From a virus, in the IMG/VR virus record IMGVR_UViG_3300018426_000208, positions 1 to 20,364 of that record: a DNA stretch of 20,364 nucleotides, one strand, 5' to 3'. Both the position numbers and the translations under genes were made by a program. The notes beneath the pieces are model-generated. The model was not told where the DNA came from, did no database searches, and was given only the letters and a program-made list of their open reading frames with translations. Below are positions 835-16,872 of the stretch, one piece after another; the stretch's first letter is position 1, and the number at the start of each line of letters is the position of its first letter.

Positions 835-842
835 TATTTATC
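835..842 (-). promoter_or_regulatory. Late promoter box GATAAATA
   Basis: The minus strand reads GATAAATAC just upstream of the gene starting at 826, and matches the NATAAATA late promoter motif of marine T4-like phages. The box overlaps the end of the terminase stop codon. If it is centred on -10 as in T4, transcription starts near 829, only about 3 nt before the ATG. Confidence 0.7.
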
Positions 843-2410
843 TAAAACATTATAAATGGCAATGGTGGCACCTCGACATCGGTATGATCCGTCATGTTCT
901 CGCCCAGATCCTTGTGGTACTGCTGTATCTGTTGCATCATGCGTACCGCCAGCACAGTGGCCATCACCAGGTCATCATGCTCGCCCGGCTTGGCCGCATA
1001 ACTGGTGCCCGATGCCACGAACTGTTTGAGCTCGCTGACCAGTGACTTGCTGTGTATCTTGAGCCTGCCACCCTCTATCAGTGTCTTCATCTTGGCGCAC
1101 GCCGCTATCTTGGTCTTGTGCGTGGTGTTGAATCCCTTGCGGAAACGCCTGCCCTGTCCCGTTTTCTTGTCCTCTGACAGGAACAGTCCTGCGATGTTCT
1201 CCTCACCGTAGTCCGCTATGGATATCAGTGCGGCCTCTCCGATGGTGTTGTTCTCCACAGAGAAATATATGTTGTTGGCGTTCACTCCATGCTCCGTGAG
1301 ATGCTTGATCATGTCCGAGAACACCCTCACCTGCTCTGGAATGGGAGTCTTGTTGTGTTTCCATTCCGCCACCTGTCGCATGTTGGTGGCATTGAACACC
1401 TGCATGGCGGCAAAGTCTCCACCCGTGCCCAGTGATGGATCCCATGACACCGTGTATATGTGTTCGGGTATCACACGTCCGTACCAACGTACCTGTCCGG
1501 TCCTCTGGGAGGGTTCCTCTCCTGCCAGGTCCATCAGGTATATGGGATTGATCAGTGTCTCGTCCACGTTGACGAACTCACATTCCATCTCCCGTCGGAA
1601 ACGTTCCTCTCCCAACTTGGCACGTTCCTCGTCTGCCCACTTGTCGTCCCTGTCGGGATGTTCTTTCCAGTAACTCCTGTAGGCCTTGAAACCGTTGATG
1701 CCCACGTCAGTGGTGTTGCCATTGGCATCCTCACACTTGTTGGCACCCTTCCACAACAGTGCGAACTGGTCCTCGTCACTGCTGGGAGTTGATGTGATGA
1801 TGGCCTTACCACCAGTGGCCAGTGTGGGTGATATGGATGTCCAGAACTCCTTGGCTATGGTGGGCCTCACGAAAGCGAACTCGTCACAGTACAGCAGTGA
1901 GATGGACATACCTCGTCCAGTGTTCTCCGTGGTGGTGGCCGACACTATGCGTGATCCATTGTCAAACTCTATGCTACCCTTGTTGTAACTGACTGCTCCT
2001 GCACGTATGTGGTCTGGGCATTCCTCGTATGCGTATCTTATGCGTTGCATGATCTCCTGTGCACCAGTGAACTTGTGTGCGGCGATCAGCACGGTGGAGT
2101 CCGGTACGAACATGGTGAACCATAACAGGTAACCGGCCGCACTGGTGGACTTGCCCGTCTGCCTGGGCATCATGCTGATGGAATATCGATAGTTGTGGTA
2201 GACGTCTATCAGGCGTTCCTGGTATTCATAGGGATCATACTTGATGCCTCCCCTCACAGGATGCTGTATGTAAAAGAAGTTGGACATGAAGTACTTGGCA
2301 CCCGTCTTGGGGTCGGCACACTTCTTGAACTGTTCTATCTGATCAATGGTGTAGCTCATCTTGCTGTGAGCCTTCTTGATCAGTACTCCGTCAAGCGATT
2401 TCTGTGACAT
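842..2410 (-). CDS. gp17: Terminase large subunit (T4 gp17-like)
   Basis: A 522-aa DNA-packaging motor with an N-terminal ATPase and a C-terminal nuclease. The Walker A loop PRQTGKST lies at residues 82-89. The Walker B strand is SLLYCDEFAF, with D176 and E177 as Mg-binding and catalytic acids, and a coupling motif TSTPS sits at 206-210. The RNase H-like nuclease shows D324 (SWDPS), E386 (FSVENN) and D479/D480 (GEHDD), matching the acidic triad of T4 gp17. The length is somewhat below the 610 aa of T4 gp17, and there is no intein or frameshift. Its ATG overlaps the stop of the upstream 65-aa gene as TAATG, and an AGGGA about 7 nt upstream serves as ribosome site. Its partner gp16 is encoded far away at 8282-8767. 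Transcription probably comes from the late box near 2613-2620. Confidence 0.96.
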   Translation of the reverse strand: MSQKSLDGVLIKKAHSKMSYTIDQIEQFKKCADPKTGAKYFMSNFFYIQHPVRGGIKYDPYEYQERLIDVYHNYRYSISMMPRQTGKSTSAAGYLLWFTMFVPDSTVLIAAHKFTGAQEIMQRIRYAYEECPDHIRAGAVSYNKGSIEFDNGSRIVSATTTENTGRGMSISLLYCDEFAFVRPTIAKEFWTSISPTLATGGKAIITSTPSSDEDQFALLWKGANKCEDANGNTTDVGINGFKAYRSYWKEHPDRDDKWADEERAKLGEERFRREMECEFVNVDETLINPIYLMDLAGEEPSQRTGQVRWYGRVIPEHIYTVSWDPSLGTGGDFAAMQVFNATNMRQVAEWKHNKTPIPEQVRVFSDMIKHLTEHGVNANNIYFSVENNTIGEAALISIADYGEENIAGLFLSEDKKTGQGRRFRKGFNTTHKTKIAACAKMKTLIEGGRLKIHSKSLVSELKQFVASGTSYAAKPGEHDDLVMATVLAVRMMQQIQQYHKDLGENMTDHTDVEVPPLPFIMF

Positions 2411-4164: not shown

Positions 4165-4557
4165 TTATTTCTTGTATTTGTTGGTGACGTTCTTGGCCTT
4201 GCCCTTGCGATCCTTGTTGGGATCGTTCCTGCGTTTCCTACGCACTGCCTGTGCTATGGCCTTCTTGCCGCCCTTGGCCCTGAGTTTGGCCGCGGCTGAT
4301 TTTGACAAGCACTTGGGCTTGCCTTCCTTGGGTCCTGCATCACCGCACTTGCCGATGCGTTCACCCTTGGTGTTGTAGCGATCCCATCCGCCTCCACCGG
4401 CTCCGCCTTTCTTGCCCTTGCCGAACCAGGCCTTGAGATCTTCTGCCACGTCGTCTTCTTTCACGCAGTTGGGCACCATCCTGTTGCCCTTCTTCTTCAT
4501 GCCTACCTGCTTGTAGCCTGTCCAGCATTTTTCCGTGATGAATTCTGTTGCACGCAT
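4165..4557 (-). CDS. Basic Cys/Lys-rich protein with capsid-targeting-like leader
   Basis: 130 aa. The N-terminus MRATEFITE followed by K resembles the T4 capsid-targeting leader and ends in ITE, fitting the (I/L)xE rule for the gp21 prohead protease. A module with C11 and C31 follows (CWTGYKQVGMKKKGNRMVPN), then a glycine-rich piece (GGAGGGGWDRYNTKG) with C71 and C83. The last 45 residues are nearly all basic (VRRKRRNDPNKDRKGKAK). Similar modules occur in uncharacterised marine phage proteins. The ATG at 4557 overlaps the preceding stop as TAATG; a longer frame upstream lies inside that gene and is rejected. It is the last gene of the seven-gene operon. I infer a DNA-associated internal head protein. 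Its function has not been demonstrated. Confidence 0.8.
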   Translation of the reverse strand: MRATEFITEKCWTGYKQVGMKKKGNRMVPNCVKEDDVAEDLKAWFGKGKKGGAGGGGWDRYNTKGERIGKCGDAGPKEGKPKCLSKSAAAKLRAKGGKKAIAQAVRRKRRNDPNKDRKGKAKNVTNKYKK

Positions 4558-4928
4558 TATTTCTTGCTCTTGTTGCCCCAGTTGGCCGCGCCAACCTTGC
4601 GGCACTGCACCAATGCTCCACTTGCGTATGCACTGGGCCATACCTTGTAACGGCTCTTGACCTTGTGGTAACATGCGTCCTTCTCGCCGGCCGCCTCATC
4701 AAACTGTTCCTCGGTCATCACTGCCTCGTCCACGAACTGCACAGGTACCAATTCAGTGCCCTGCGTCTTGGGATTGAGTACCATCATGTATGGTTTGCCA
4801 TTGCTGGTCAACTTTGAATCTTTCTGCACCCGGGCATATTTTTGTTTTGTGATCTTGACGGGACCTTTGCCGTTATATTCAAAATCTCTACCTGCTAAGA
4901 CTGCTTCTTTGAATTCTTCGTATCTCAT
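4557..4928 (-). CDS. Conserved small protein with Cys/Trp basic C-terminal module
   Basis: 123 aa starting MRYEEFKEAVLAGRDFEYNG. This resembles the leaders of neighbouring genes but lacks a clean (I/L)xE cleavage triplet. The middle contains KPYMMVLNPKTQGTELVPVQ. The C-terminus carries DACYHKVKSRYKVWPSAYAS followed by a second Cys and NWGNK, with C86, C109, W97 and W117 and many Lys/Arg. I recognise this C-terminal block as a module recurring in marine T4-like phage proteins of unknown function. The start overlaps the stop of the upstream gene only in part (ATGA shared with the nuclease stop side is at 4925-4928), and its own stop overlaps the next ATG. It is a candidate internal head protein by context; confidence in that role is low. 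Confidence 0.78.
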   Translation of the reverse strand: MRYEEFKEAVLAGRDFEYNGKGPVKITKQKYARVQKDSKLTSNGKPYMMVLNPKTQGTELVPVQFVDEAVMTEEQFDEAAGEKDACYHKVKSRYKVWPSAYASGALVQCRKVGAANWGNKSKK

Positions 4929-5383
4929 CTCTTGCGTTCCATCAATTTGATTGCCTTGTCATAGTCCTTCTGGCTCACGCCGCCCTCGCTCAACACCTTC
5001 TGCCTGTTGGCCATGTGTGTCTGCCAGACCTCGTCCTTGGATCCACCGTGGTAGGCCACTGCATGTCCATGTTCTATCAGCACCTCGGTGGCCATCTTGC
5101 CATCCTTGGTAGTGAAGTCGCCCAGTATGCGTCCGAACTTGCCCTTTGAATCGTATTCCTTGCACACCAGCACCGCTTGCTTGCCCAGTATCTCCTTGAG
5201 CTTGGCCTTGGCCGCCAGTCCAAACAGTTTCTCTACCTTGTCTCTGGTCCTGGATTCCGGTGTGTCTATGCCCATCATGCGTACACGTTCATCTTTCAGC
5301 ATGACACCAAACCCTAGGTCGATGTCTATGTCCACGGTGTCGCCGTCGACTATGCGTTTGATGATGGCCTTGTACTCATACAT
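4925..5383 (-). CDS. Staphylococcal-nuclease-like (thermonuclease) enzyme
   Basis: 152 aa covering a complete SNase OB-fold domain. The catalytic set is intact: D15 in VDGDTVDI, R35, D40, T41 and E43 in ERVRMMGIDTPES, and R85 in KFGRILGDF. These match D21, R35, D40, T41, E43 and R87 of the staphylococcal enzyme, a Ca-dependent nuclease cutting DNA and RNA. There is no signal peptide and no capsid-targeting-like leader, so it should stay in the infected cell unless carried by a partner. The ATG at 5383 is chosen because the domain starts there; the longer frame runs into the previous gene. It is 1 nt from the upstream stop and its stop overlaps the next ATG as ATGA. SNase-like genes are known in marine T4-like phages, but their role is unclear. 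Confidence 0.93.
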   Translation of the reverse strand: MYEYKAIIKRIVDGDTVDIDIDLGFGVMLKDERVRMMGIDTPESRTRDKVEKLFGLAAKAKLKEILGKQAVLVCKEYDSKGKFGRILGDFTTKDGKMATEVLIEHGHAVAYHGGSKDEVWQTHMANRQKVLSEGGVSQKDYDKAIKLMERKR

Positions 5384-5384
5384 G

Positions 5385-5771
5385 TCACTTGTTCTTCCTT
5401 GACTTCTGCCACTTGGCTCCCTGCACGGGTGACTGTGTGTTGGTGTCCTCCAACTCCCTGGATGGTCCTTCTGACTCCACCTTGGTCTTGATTCCCATGG
5501 CCTTGTTGGCGGCATCGATCATCTTGCGTTCTGCCTCCGTGTAGGCTCCCATGTATGGTCTGGTGGTGAGGAATGCGTCAGTGTCTATGTCGCTGTCGTC
5601 ACCGGGTGCCCTGGCCATCAGCATGGAGGCTCTGTACATGCCATAGTACCTGTCCATGTCTGCCGTGTAGGCTCCTGGAGTGGCCGCGGCGAGTCTTTGG
5701 TCCATCTTTCCTGGACGCTTGCCGCTCATGCCGAAGGGACCTCTTTCCGATAGGAATTCCTTGGCTCGCAT
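5385..5771 (-). CDS. Conserved marine-phage protein with capsid-targeting-like leader
   Basis: 128 aa starting MRAKEFLSE then RGPFGMSGKRPGK. LSE fits the (I/L)xE cleavage pattern, as in four other proteins of this window. The middle is Met/Tyr/Ala-rich (YYGMYRASMLMARA), followed by an acidic Asp stretch and TTRPYMGAYTEAERKMIDAA. The C-terminus has RELEDTNTQSPVQ and a basic end. The TEAExxMI...A and LEDTNTxSPV blocks recur in uncharacterised marine T4-like phage proteins. It lies between the 167-aa protein and the nuclease, with 1-nt gaps on both sides, so it is part of the packed late operon. The upstream extension of the frame overlaps the 167-aa gene and is rejected. An internal head role is inferred only from the leader. 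Confidence 0.8.
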   Translation of the reverse strand: MRAKEFLSERGPFGMSGKRPGKMDQRLAAATPGAYTADMDRYYGMYRASMLMARAPGDDSDIDTDAFLTTRPYMGAYTEAERKMIDAANKAMGIKTKVESEGPSRELEDTNTQSPVQGAKWQKSRKNK

Positions 5772-5772
5772 G

Positions 5773-6276
5773 TTAGTTGTTGACCTTTGAGCCCTTGCGC
5801 CACTGGTAGCATGACCAGTACTTGGCTTTGGTCTTGTCCTTGGCTGATGCCTTGTCACAGCCGTGTCTGGCACGGAATGACTTGCGTCTCTTGGGATCGT
5901 CTCTCTTGATGGACAGTTTGGGATCACCGAATCTCACCACTTTCACGTTGCCCGACTTGGGATCTTTGACGTACACCTTGAATTTCTTCTTGGGATTCTC
6001 TGATGTCCTGATGGGATCATTCAGTTTGACTTTCTTTCCCTGGTACTCTGCCTCGTCAAACACTGCAAACTCAACACCGTCCTCGAACTCACATCCGCAA
6101 TGCTCAAGCATGGCCTGGCATTCCTCGTCCATGATCAGTGTGATGGAATCGTCAGTGTGTGACTCAACGATGGATTCAACCACCGTGTCCAGGTTGATTA
6201 TGAAGTCCACATGGTCATCCGTCACTGGATTGGCATGTCTCCTCTCTGTTTCCTCGAGATACTTTCTGAAAGACAT
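5773..6276 (-). CDS. Conserved protein with capsid-targeting-like leader and Cys/Arg C-terminus
   Basis: 167 aa. The leader MSFRKYLEE then TERRHANP gives LEE at the cleavage position. A mixed alpha/beta middle follows, with an acidic Cys-containing part (C53, C60, C62) and the segment KKKFKVYVKDPKSGNVKVVR. The C-terminus holds KRRKSFRARHGCDKASAKDK and YWSCYQWRKG, with C140 and C156, a basic module common in marine phage proteins. The Cys pair suggests metal binding or a disulfide. Its ATG overlaps the stop of the 455-aa gene (TAATG). I infer a virion-internal, DNA-contacting role from the leader and basic tail; function is otherwise unknown. Confidence 0.82.
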   Translation of the reverse strand: MSFRKYLEETERRHANPVTDDHVDFIINLDTVVESIVESHTDDSITLIMDEECQAMLEHCGCEFEDGVEFAVFDEAEYQGKKVKLNDPIRTSENPKKKFKVYVKDPKSGNVKVVRFGDPKLSIKRDDPKRRKSFRARHGCDKASAKDKTKAKYWSCYQWRKGSKVNN

Positions 6277-7643
6277 TATTCTGATTCCTTGTATTCCTTG
6301 TAAAGATCCATCATGCTCTCTTCCAGATCCTTGTTCTTGGTTTCTTGGTACAGTGCATTTGAGTTGGACTTGGCCGCTGATGCTGGTCTTGGACCATTCA
6401 CACCGCCTGTCATCTTGACCATCTGCGTGTCTGCTGATGCTACCTTCTCTCTGGGAGAGTTGGTGTACTCGATGTCTCTTTCTTCCTCGACCGACTCTTC
6501 ATCGCCCTTGTATTCCTTGTAACCATCTGAACGCATGCCGGACAGTTTCAACAGGTTCTTGATCATGTCCACATGATCACCGTTGGCACTGATGCTCACG
6601 TTCTCGTTGCCCTGGTCATCAATGGATTGTGTGACATTGACTCCCTCGTCCAATCTTTCTTTCAACTTGTTTTCAAAGTCTTCCATCATGGCGTCCAGGT
6701 TCAGTTCCGCTGACTCTTTCTTGGGACGTCCACGTCCTCTCTTCTCCGCATCCGGATCTACCAATGGATCCACTGGCTCCATGGATGTGGCCTTGACACC
6801 ATCCTTGGTGTACTTGTAGTGTGTTCTCTTGCCGTCCTTGTAAGTGACCGTGAATCCTGCACTGTCCTTTGATGGACTGTCCTTCTTGACCTTGTGTCCT
6901 GCCTTCTCATGGCCAGCGATCTTGTCGTCGATGTCTGATGGATCGTATGCCTCTTCCACTTTCTCGATCTTCTCGTACTGCTCAGGAGTGGTGTCATCTT
7001 CCTTCATGTCTTCCTTGTCCTTGGCGGCCTTCTTCATTGGCTCTTTTTTGTCGCCATCCTTGTCAAGGTCCAGGAAGTCTGGCTTGGCTTCTTCGATTGT
7101 TTCATTGTACTTGTCTCGAGTCATGGTAGGTGCAATGCCGTGGAGTCTTCGGAGGTCGTCGGCCGCATTTTGAATTTGATATGCAACTGACTTGTCCTCT
7201 ATCTTGTCACACATCTGGTCGATGTAGTTGAGATAGGACTCTGCTTGCTCTTTAGACGATTCTTCATCGTCTTCACCAATCTTTTTGGCCATTTTTTGTT
7301 CAGCATCTGCTTGCTTTTTGGCCATTTTGTATTCCGCGTCTACCTGCTTTTTGGCCAAATCAGATATGGCATCCTCGTTGGTAGTCTCAGGAGCATCTGA
7401 CTGCACGTTCAGTGTCTGAACACCTGCCAGTCTGGCATACTCCGTTGGAGATTCCTCATTTGCCACTGGTGTGTACACTTCCTCGCCCGTTGCCGAGACC
7501 TGCTGTGCCTGTGGCATCAATGGATTTTCCGCAGTTGGATTGGTAGGGTTGTTCATCTTCTCTGCGTTCTCGATGGCTCTCGCCTGATCCTCGTTGGGAT
7601 TCTCAATCTTTTTCAGTTTTGATAATACGTCTTGCATTTCCAT
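6276..7643 (-). CDS. Acidic coiled-coil protein with AT-hook and EF-hand-like loop
   Basis: 455 aa, very rich in Glu, Asp and Lys. Near residues 95-122 a repeated unit (KKQVDAEYKMA, KKQADAEQKMA) should form a coiled coil. Residues 192-201, DLDKDGDKKE, look like a Ca-binding EF-hand or dockerin-type loop. Residues about 301-310, KRGRGRPKKE, form a textbook AT-hook core (RGRP with flanking basic residues). Near the C-terminus is DMIKNLLKLSGM, a motif shared with other acidic marine phage proteins. I start it at ATG 7643 because AGGAG lies 10 nt upstream and overlaps the previous stop; a longer reading begins with TTG. Its size, charge and place in the head region suggest a prohead core or internal protein. 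No convincing resemblance to T4 gp22 is visible, so this is inference. Confidence 0.85.
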   Translation of the reverse strand: MEMQDVLSKLKKIENPNEDQARAIENAEKMNNPTNPTAENPLMPQAQQVSATGEEVYTPVANEESPTEYARLAGVQTLNVQSDAPETTNEDAISDLAKKQVDAEYKMAKKQADAEQKMAKKIGEDDEESSKEQAESYLNYIDQMCDKIEDKSVAYQIQNAADDLRRLHGIAPTMTRDKYNETIEEAKPDFLDLDKDGDKKEPMKKAAKDKEDMKEDDTTPEQYEKIEKVEEAYDPSDIDDKIAGHEKAGHKVKKDSPSKDSAGFTVTYKDGKRTHYKYTKDGVKATSMEPVDPLVDPDAEKRGRGRPKKESAELNLDAMMEDFENKLKERLDEGVNVTQSIDDQGNENVSISANGDHVDMIKNLLKLSGMRSDGYKEYKGDEESVEEERDIEYTNSPREKVASADTQMVKMTGGVNGPRPASAAKSNSNALYQETKNKDLEESMMDLYKEYKESE

Positions 7644-7653
7644 GGTTCTATGT

Positions 7654-7658
7654 CTCCT
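7654..7658 (-). promoter_or_regulatory. Shine-Dalgarno AGGAG overlapping a stop codon
   Basis: The minus strand reads TAGGAG at the end of the 196-aa gene, so the stop codon TAG supplies the first bases of the ribosome site for the 455-aa gene. The 10-nt gap to ATG 7643 favours this start over the TTG at 7667 and the ATG at 7637. Confidence 0.7.
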
Positions 7659-8247
7659 ATCTAGCAAACGACTTGACGTCTGGTAGTTTTGGTTTCACGC
7701 TACCCACGGCTGATTTGTCACCCATCGGTAAGTCATTGTTTGTTTGTGCCTTCGGTTCAGCGATGTTGGCGGCAAACTTGAATCTCGTGTGCTTGTCTTT
7801 TGGTAGGCTGTTGCTGGGATTCTGGTAGTCTTCACTGGCCTGTTTGGCTTCCGCACTGTCCGACAGTTCTTTCTCCAGTATCGGACCTTCCTCAGGCTCC
7901 GCACCCTCGTGCTCCTCCCAGGACTTGGCGAAATGTTCGCCCACCACCTTGATGTGTGACTTGGGATGGTTGGTGCATTTCTCTATCATCTCATACAGTG
8001 CGTCCTGCCCTGCTGGATATGCCAGTTCGATGTCAAAAGAGCAGACCTCCATGTTCTTGACATGTGGGAAATCCAATGGATCTTCCTGCACGGGTGTGGT
8101 CTTGGGTGAGCTCATGTTGACCAGTTCGAACTGTCCCAACTTGGTCTCCAGCTCTTTCAGGCATTCATTATCACAGTCACCGGCCACTTTGACCCTGTAC
8201 TTGTAAGTCTGTTCCGCTTCAATTAAATATCTTAAGTATGTCTTCAT
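7657..8247 (-). CDS. Conserved protein with T4 internal-protein-like leader, 196 aa
   Basis: Starts MKTYLRYLIE then AEQTYKYRVKVAG. The first four residues and the acidic ending at residue 10 closely parallel MKTYQEFIAE, the capsid-targeting leader of T4 internal proteins. LIE fits (I/L)xE cleavage. The following domain (TYKYRVKVAGDCDNECLKEL, then FELVNMSSPKTTPVQEDPL and CSFDIELAYPAG) is an alpha/beta fold found in uncharacterised phage proteins. The C-terminal 80 residues are acidic and then disordered. It is the first gene of the seven-gene late operon, directly behind a perfect TATAAATA box, with AGGTAGGG as ribosome site. I infer a capsid-internal or prohead protein; the enzymatic role, if any, is unknown. 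Confidence 0.83.
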   Translation of the reverse strand: MKTYLRYLIEAEQTYKYRVKVAGDCDNECLKELETKLGQFELVNMSSPKTTPVQEDPLDFPHVKNMEVCSFDIELAYPAGQDALYEMIEKCTNHPKSHIKVVGEHFAKSWEEHEGAEPEEGPILEKELSDSAEAKQASEDYQNPSNSLPKDKHTRFKFAANIAEPKAQTNNDLPMGDKSAVGSVKPKLPDVKSFAR

Positions 8248-8268: not shown

Positions 8269-8276
8269 TATTTATA
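8269..8276 (-). promoter_or_regulatory. Late promoter box TATAAATA (exact T4 consensus)
   Basis: The minus strand reads TATAAATA, identical to the T4 late consensus. It lies in the 34-bp gap between the gp16 stop and the 196-aa gene. The predicted start near 8263 leaves a 16-nt leader with AGGTAGGG. The box is embedded in the imperfect palindrome CTGTATTTATACAG (8267-8280). Confidence 0.85.
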
Positions 8277-16470: not shown

Positions 16471-16872
16471 CTACTTGCGTTTTGGTCCTTTTGGGGATAT
16501 CTTTTTTAGGAAAGGTGTTTTTGGTTTGGCACGTTTTGACGTTGCCACTTTCTTGGGTCTGAGAGATTTTTTGAGTGCGTCTCTGCGTTTGAACTTGTTC
16601 AGCGCCTGCATGATGCGACTGGCCACGTTCAGTTTCTTGGTTCTCTTGGCCTTGCGTGCCTGCACGGCCTTGGTCTTGGCACGTGTCTGTTTCATCTTTG
16701 CCCGTTTGCCCACATCAATGGATGCTCCGCATTGGCTGGGACTTGACACCAATCTGCCTGCACGGTTGCCGGTCTCGCAACGCCACTTCATCTTGACCTT
16801 GGACTTGCCGGTACCGCCCTTGCCCACACGGGCAAACACCATGCCTTCCGTGATGATCTCGGATACCTGCAT
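16471..16872 (-). CDS. Highly basic protein with capsid-targeting-like leader
   Basis: 133 aa. The leader MQVSEIITE then GMVFARVG ends in ITE, matching the (I/L)xE cleavage rule. A short module with C32 and C48 follows (KMKWRCETGNRAGRLVSSPS, then QCGASIDVGKRAKMKQTRAK). The second half is histone-H1-like in composition, almost all Lys, Arg and Ala with Pro-spaced basic clusters (KKVATSKRAKPKTPFLKKIS). The WRC...GR.VSSPSQC block recurs in marine phage proteins. The ATG overlaps the gp13 stop (TGATG), so it is made late together with the neck protein. The best inference is a DNA-binding internal head protein packaged by the leader. No enzymatic motif is seen. Confidence 0.82.
   Translation of the reverse strand: MQVSEIITEGMVFARVGKGGTGKSKVKMKWRCETGNRAGRLVSSPSQCGASIDVGKRAKMKQTRAKTKAVQARKAKRTKKLNVASRIMQALNKFKRRDALKKSLRPKKVATSKRAKPKTPFLKKISPKGPKRK

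Follow-up and report, generated by a model that had tools for sequence, protein, structure and literature searches.

Candidate T4-type capsid-targeting leaders on proteins encoded beside the terminase in uncultured marine T4-related phages

Gene content of the leader operon and its surroundings

The window analyzed here is a 20,364-base IMG/VR virus fragment taken at its full length. In minus-strand order, its genes run from a neck protein through p16872, an exonuclease, a dNMP kinase, the tail sheath and the tail tube to a second tube-like protein, a gp4-like head-closure protein, p8767, p8247, p7643, p6276, p5771, a staphylococcal-nuclease-like enzyme, p4928 and p4557, and onward to the large terminase; several of these names were assigned by synteny with phage PA5oct. 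The T4 gp17-like large terminase (842-2410, minus strand), the landmark of the locus, is 53% identical to the terminase of PA5oct, and PA5oct-type Pseudomonas jumbo phages are its nearest cultured relatives. The late cluster gp291-gp280 of PA5oct (Wroclawvirus, Arenbergviridae) has the same neck-to-terminase order as the window; however, PA5oct lacks the candidate cargo genes that the window carries in addition between p7643 (the gp281 position) and the terminase. Relatives of the locus were drawn from terminase-anchored loci, since a direct scan of viral contigs with p8247 returned zero relatives. A gene for a staphylococcal-nuclease-like protein lies near or adjoining the terminase both in the window and in cyanophage S-SM1 (SSM1_125).

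All features of the leader operon lie on the minus strand. A T4-type late promoter octamer, TATAAATA (8269-8276), which the earlier note had missed, is the sole match in the window against 0.09 expected; the first gene with a leader, p8247 (7657-8247, 196 aa), starts about 21 nt downstream of it. The leader of p8247, MKTYLRYLIE/A (codons 1-10, 8218-8247; the slash marks the candidate cleavage site here and below), precedes an acidic mature part in which a ferredoxin-like domain is weakly predicted and the tail is disordered. The next gene product, p7643 (6276-7643, 455 aa), is acidic and leaderless, and its positional counterpart in PA5oct, gp281, is a virion protein by ESI-MS/MS. An EF-hand-like acidic stretch, PDFLDLDKDGDKKEPMKKA, is present in p7643, and stretches of this type recur in many proteins encoded at this locus in relatives, although these proteins otherwise differ. 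The 167-aa p6276 (5773-6276) starts with MSFRKYLEE/T (codons 1-9) and ends in a DUF5754-like AEY module directly preceded by FDE75/A76. The basic p5771 (5385-5771, 128 aa), with the leader MRAKEFLSE/R (codons 1-9), belongs to a family that is tandemly amplified in relatives (MRAREF[IV]xE). Between p5771 and p4928, the staphylococcal-nuclease-like enzyme (4925-5383; Pfam SNase, 2e-12) has no leader.

The basic p4928 (4557-4928, 123 aa) carries a degenerate leader, MRYEEFKE/A, that the earlier note on this DNA had missed and that appears in homologues as MKILEIQE/G and MKFTEFQE/G; its C-terminal DACY module follows directly on MTE/E. In p4557 (4165-4557, 130 aa, pI 10.3), the leader MRATEFITE/K is followed by a KCW module and then by VAE39 and a module beginning DLKAWFG. 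The gene for p16872 (16471-16872, 133 aa) lies apart from the operon and follows the neck gene; its product has the leader MQVSEIITE/G and, with a pI of 12.0 and 34% Lys plus Arg, the composition expected of a protein sitting among packaged DNA. The pI values of p6276, p5771, p4557, p16872 and p4928 span 8.5-12.0, in contrast to 5.0 for p8247, whose acidity also sets it apart from the T4 internal proteins. The operon has its strand and position in common with the tail and terminase genes, and these features together with TATAAATA predict that it would be expressed late.

Reality and conservation of the leaders

The five leader starts reported in the earlier note (MKTYLRYLIE, MSFRKYLEE, MRAKEFLSE, MRATEFITE and MQVSEIITE) were all found in place, with those of p8247, p6276, p5771 and p4557 in one operon and that of p16872 outside it. 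For p4557 and p5771, longest-ORF calls start further upstream; the leader starts, which abut the preceding stop, are the conserved ones. Since homologues retain the leaders, these are, judging from the aligned sequences, no start-calling artefact. The pattern M-x3-5-[FYILM][ILV]xE, which was derived from T4 yet applied after the window had been viewed, matches approximately 0.8-1.2% of internal ATG/GTG codons in four relatives and approximately 2.5% of T4 start codons, giving a chance probability of about 2e-6 to 4e-4 for five leaders in some 26 genes.

Conservation of the leader in homologues, proposed earlier as a check, was borne out, with the Glu and the leader retained down to 29% identity. 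Among non-redundant homologues, the Glu is invariant in the 8247 (25/25), 5771 (26/26) and 6276 (7/7) families, and all aligned members have a hydrophobic residue at P3, in some cases V or M. The 28 p8247 homologues listed, with identities down to 29%, start with M[KR]xFxxYL[TA]ES or near variants, while the p5771 family has the form MRA-[KRQS]-[ED]-F-[ILV]-x-E behind an ATG or GTG start, with M1, A3, F6 and E9 invariant in 42 sequences. The leader is not the best-conserved stretch of either p8247 (rank 37 of 186) or p6276 (103 of 157). AlphaFold models were poor (mean pLDDT of 66.5 for p8247 and 58.3 for p5771), and fold comparison of p8247 gave only generic ferredoxin-like matches (S6, PII, HPPK) of low TM-score, from which no function was read.

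Spread across relatives and concentration near the terminase

A strict form of the leader was found on 201 of 3164 ORFs from related loci, corresponding to 155 distinct proteins from dozens of uncultured relatives. These comprise 60 members of the 5771 family, 32 of the 4557 family, 28 of the 8247 family and 18 of the 6276 family, as well as a few singletons, including the 16872 type. The leader proteins thus represent four unrelated families and, in addition, the 16872 family, in agreement with the earlier claim that they are mutually unrelated. Enrichment in late operons, which the earlier note had suggested measuring, was also observed: between p8767 and the terminase, 10 of 41 ORFs carry the leader, compared to 7 of 612 elsewhere in three long related contigs (Fisher p = 4e-9, a value to be taken as strong rather than exact, the three genomes being of common ancestry and not fully independent). 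These counts used the strict motif in place of a looser one, with which a first genome-wide count had been weak.

Loci bearing a p8247 homologue contain one to five leader genes, mostly three to five. Tandem leader genes often overlap by ATGA, as in related loci L021 (63-1170), L036 (2043-4766) and L049 (1250-2387), and the members of these arrays are diverged p5771 paralogues. Besides the leader, the paralogues in L021, L036, L049 and L060 have a C-terminal motif, S-x-E...SP[VI]xxFKGYxR.

Correspondence to the T4 capsid-targeting sequence

In T4, the unrelated small proteins IPI, IPII and IPIII carry a capsid-targeting sequence (CTS) that is cleaved by gp21, and a 10-residue leader of the form MK-T-[YF]-x-x-[FY]-[IL]-x-E is common to the T4 and marine systems; IPII and IPIII do start with MKTYQEFIAE, as the earlier note had stated. 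A position matrix built from 20 distinct marine 8247-family leaders, with zero T4 data, was scored on 263 annotated T4 proteins. IPIII and IPII ranked at the top with 19.8 bits each, followed by gp61.1 (12.5), IPI (5.9) and gp24 (-0.4), while the highest score reached by any of the 954 internal Met windows was 1.5. T4 gp61.1 (NC_000866, 18966-19130; in L222) is a 54-residue protein starting with MKTFKEFIKE/DMVAGDS, a sequence suggesting that its targeting to the capsid has been overlooked.

In the IPIII leader, targeting depends on residues 4 and 7, whereas processing depends on residues 8 and 10; replacing residue 10 by Asp blocks processing while leaving targeting intact (PMC9026906). The 8247-family leader is most conserved at K2, Y/F7, L8 and E10, with position 4 kept aromatic or Leu, such that F/Y/L4, Y/F7, L/I8 and E10 overlap the positions mapped in IPIII; the 9-residue leaders of the window fit the same targeting and processing positions with one residue fewer. 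CTS-like basic proteins occur in close T4 relatives, and the CTS has been proposed as a general loading device (PMC9026906). In contrast to the T4 system, the marine leaders are attached to different candidate cargo families, include the 9-residue variant MRAREF[IV]xE, and are encoded in clusters beside the terminase, with tandem arrays. Internal head proteins of phiKZ and SPN3US have propeptides at their N-termini that are removed by cleavage behind a Glu; however, their motifs are SxE or AxE, and their propeptides are mostly far longer (PMC5694885).

The 16872 family resembles the longer T4 leader type. Near relatives of p16872 start with M[KR]I[SN][ED]II[TS]E/GMVFAR. In a set of 20 distinct leaders from distant homologues, no Glu is more than 4 residues from the conserved core (20/20), and 19/20 have V, L or I at P3; leader length varies from 8 to 27 residues, yet the Glu keeps its place at the mature boundary. 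This design matches that of T4 IPI, with its 19-residue leader ending ITE/A, and the family includes similarly long leaders ending in hydrophobic-x-E/A, such as MHLTELCENTSVSTVLE/AK. Salicola phage SCTP-2 has the 16872-family core without a leader.

Prohead protease and its other substrates

The earlier note called for a check that a gp21-like protease is encoded elsewhere in the genome. None was found on the 20-kb window record, which is a fragment; the gene does occur in relatives with the same locus. Of 15 large related contigs, 6 encode a Peptidase_S77 (gp21-type, PF03420) protease, and three of these (G001, G004 and G006) also contain the leader locus. The major capsid protein of G001 and G006 starts with MS[QN]ELLE/..LLE/G..ILE/N..L[RA]E, and the scaffold protein neighboring the capsid gene has more than 12 (L/I)xE sites, most of them at matching positions, so that the capsid and scaffold proteins of these relatives look cleavable.

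Leader-bearing proteins in virions of relatives

The PA5oct homologue of p8247, gp282, is a structural protein by ESI-MS/MS according to its record note, and it has lost the cleavage Glu (MKSFRDYYDAS), as has the Phosso homologue (MKNFYEYLSS); both keep aromatic or hydrophobic residues at leader positions 4 and 7. The loss of the Glu in these two homologues means that targeting and processing have to be kept apart, and the presence of gp282 in virions is as expected of a targeted yet unprocessed protein. The homologue in Vibrio phage 2.275.O keeps MKDLNTILTE/S. Across the PA5oct proteome, a plain T4-like pattern showed no enrichment among virion proteins (3/93 versus 7/352 other proteins, p = 0.35), and a pattern with an added basic residue at position 2, chosen afterwards, gave a weak signal (5/93 versus 4/352, p = 0.02). 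Five PA5oct virion proteins, gp333, gp246, gp247, gp105 and gp104 (L168-L173), have short leaders ending in xxE, examples in this phage being MKINDIITE/G, right after the portal, and MKIKDILVE/S, suggesting that PA5oct may hold more tagged proteins.

In the first 150 kb of the 174-kb S-SM1 record, four leader matches were found, among which the T4-GC190 protein alone has the full MKxFxxFLxEA form (MKKFSAFLNE/A). This protein was experimentally found in virions and is listed by Sullivan et al. (PMC3037559). T4-GC190 is a cyanophage core virion protein, a cytidylyltransferase encoded in L401 at 48256-49419 (148256-149419 of the S-SM1 record). A CTS-like leader would explain the presence of such an enzyme in virions, and its distant homologues align only past the leader region. 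It is a virion protein of a marine T4-like phage with a leader of this kind, but it is an enzyme and no kin of any of the five window proteins.

Interpretation of the leader operon and alternative explanations

The reading favored here, with a probability of roughly 0.85, is that the leaders are T4-type capsid-targeting propeptides and that the operon at 8247-4165 is an internal-protein (cargo) locus beside the terminase. The tagged proteins would be made late in infection; the 9- to 10-residue leader would dock each of them onto the prohead core; a gp21-type protease would cut after (hydrophobic)-x-Glu; and the mature cargo would stay in the head until ejected with the DNA. We infer packaging, cleavage and ejection in this manner for all five window proteins, with p16872 as a further, very basic member of the cargo. 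The earlier proposal of an internal-protein locus in a T4-like phage holds as far as the sequence features go, but the closest cultured relatives are the T4-related jumbo phages PA5oct and Phosso rather than T4, and a cargo locus expanded in marine T4-related phages is the best reading.

An unlikely alternative is that the leader stays uncut and serves as a helix for docking onto the prohead or another virion assembly, with another role for the Glu. It would account for PA5oct gp282 reaching virions without the Glu and for the aromatic and hydrophobic residues retained by Phosso; residues 4-10 are helical in the p8247 model, at low confidence, and work on SPN3US showed that head-protein processing is no stable feature between related giant phages (PMC5694885). 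The invariance of the Glu in three families, however, argues against this alternative, as does its hold on the mature boundary in the 16872 family while leader length varies.

Far less probable is a resemblance at the nucleotide level, for example a translation-initiation sequence with no protein signal, which could be imagined for a short N-terminal element that is frequent among tightly packed genes. Codons of the 8247-family leader do vary less than those of the following body (identical residues with different codons in 33% versus 52% of cases); in the 5771 family, by contrast, 53% of comparisons between identical leader residues show different codons, and variation extends to the codons of Arg, Ala, Glu, Phe and Ile, which places the constraint on the protein rather than the DNA, and the pattern is missing from nearly all other late genes of the same genomes. 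Chance resemblance of a loose motif deserves equally little credence: the loosest (I/L)xE form does occur near the N-terminus of 31 of 445 PA5oct proteins, but conservation, concentration in the locus and the high ranks of the T4 internal proteins under the marine-trained matrix refute it across phages.

The tag itself proved widespread and portable and, if the leaders are indeed capsid-targeting propeptides, would allow the head cargo of uncultured marine phages to be predicted from sequence alone. No description of such leaders in marine or Arenbergviridae-related phages was found among the papers searched. The T4 internal proteins are known as a small, poorly conserved set, and the proteins injected with T4 DNA include an anti-restriction protein and a modifier of host RNA polymerase. 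The present analysis names candidates for DNA-co-injected proteins, including the tandem, fast-diverging MRAREF arrays adjoining the terminase.

Module junctions and a possible polyprotein organization

Both p4557 and p4928, as well as p6276 in its C-terminal half, are built of small modules that occur in many marine phage proteins; S-SM1 SSM1_115 is another module protein. In relatives, one such module is found either as the first element after a leader (MRAVEFISE/DLRAWFGKGKKGG) or far into the interior of a long protein. For four unrelated small Lys/Cys-rich modules, a Glu stands before the module at 53/53, 38/39, 16/24 and 35/35 distinct junctions, and V, I, L or M precedes this Glu by two residues in 92, 66, 88 and 100% of cases, compared to 25-29% for other Glu residues in the same proteins. 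The signature holds at either position, behind a short leader or within a long protein, and the junctions of the window read VAE/D (p4557), MTE/E (p4928) and FDE/A (p6276). These sequence patterns raise the possibility, rated at slightly below even odds, that marine T4-like phages make capsid cargo as polyproteins from which the prohead protease would cut mini-proteins inside the head; if true, this would explain the module-repeat proteins common in these phages. Alternatively, the junction Glu could be part of the module fold.

The AEY module allows phages with and without a detected protease to be compared. In four cultured phages with the protease, its junctions are LEE/A, LTE/A, LDE/G and MME/S, all of the form L/M-x-E. 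Cultured relatives that keep the motif include HTVC008M and phage C48C1, in which the leader MKKFKQYIDE/G is followed further on by LTE/AEYQGKK. No S77 protease was found in HTVC026P, HTVC111P, CRP-902 or CRP-235; in the first three, which are small phages, the AEY module starts with MA[KT]Y exactly at the junction residue, as it does in Aegir, a further small phage outside the protease search, while the CRP-235 junction is too diverged for alignment. For such standalone AEY proteins, a Met at the junction is obligatory anyway. PF07068 searches of the AEY contigs gave mostly zero matches because the contigs are fragments. Of 80 uncultured loci with the module, 69 have hydrophobic-x-E at the junction, 2 another x-x-E, 5 an Asp (confined to one uncultured clade) and 4 a direct Met start, and all 7 uncultured AEY contigs with a detected protease have hydrophobic-x-E.
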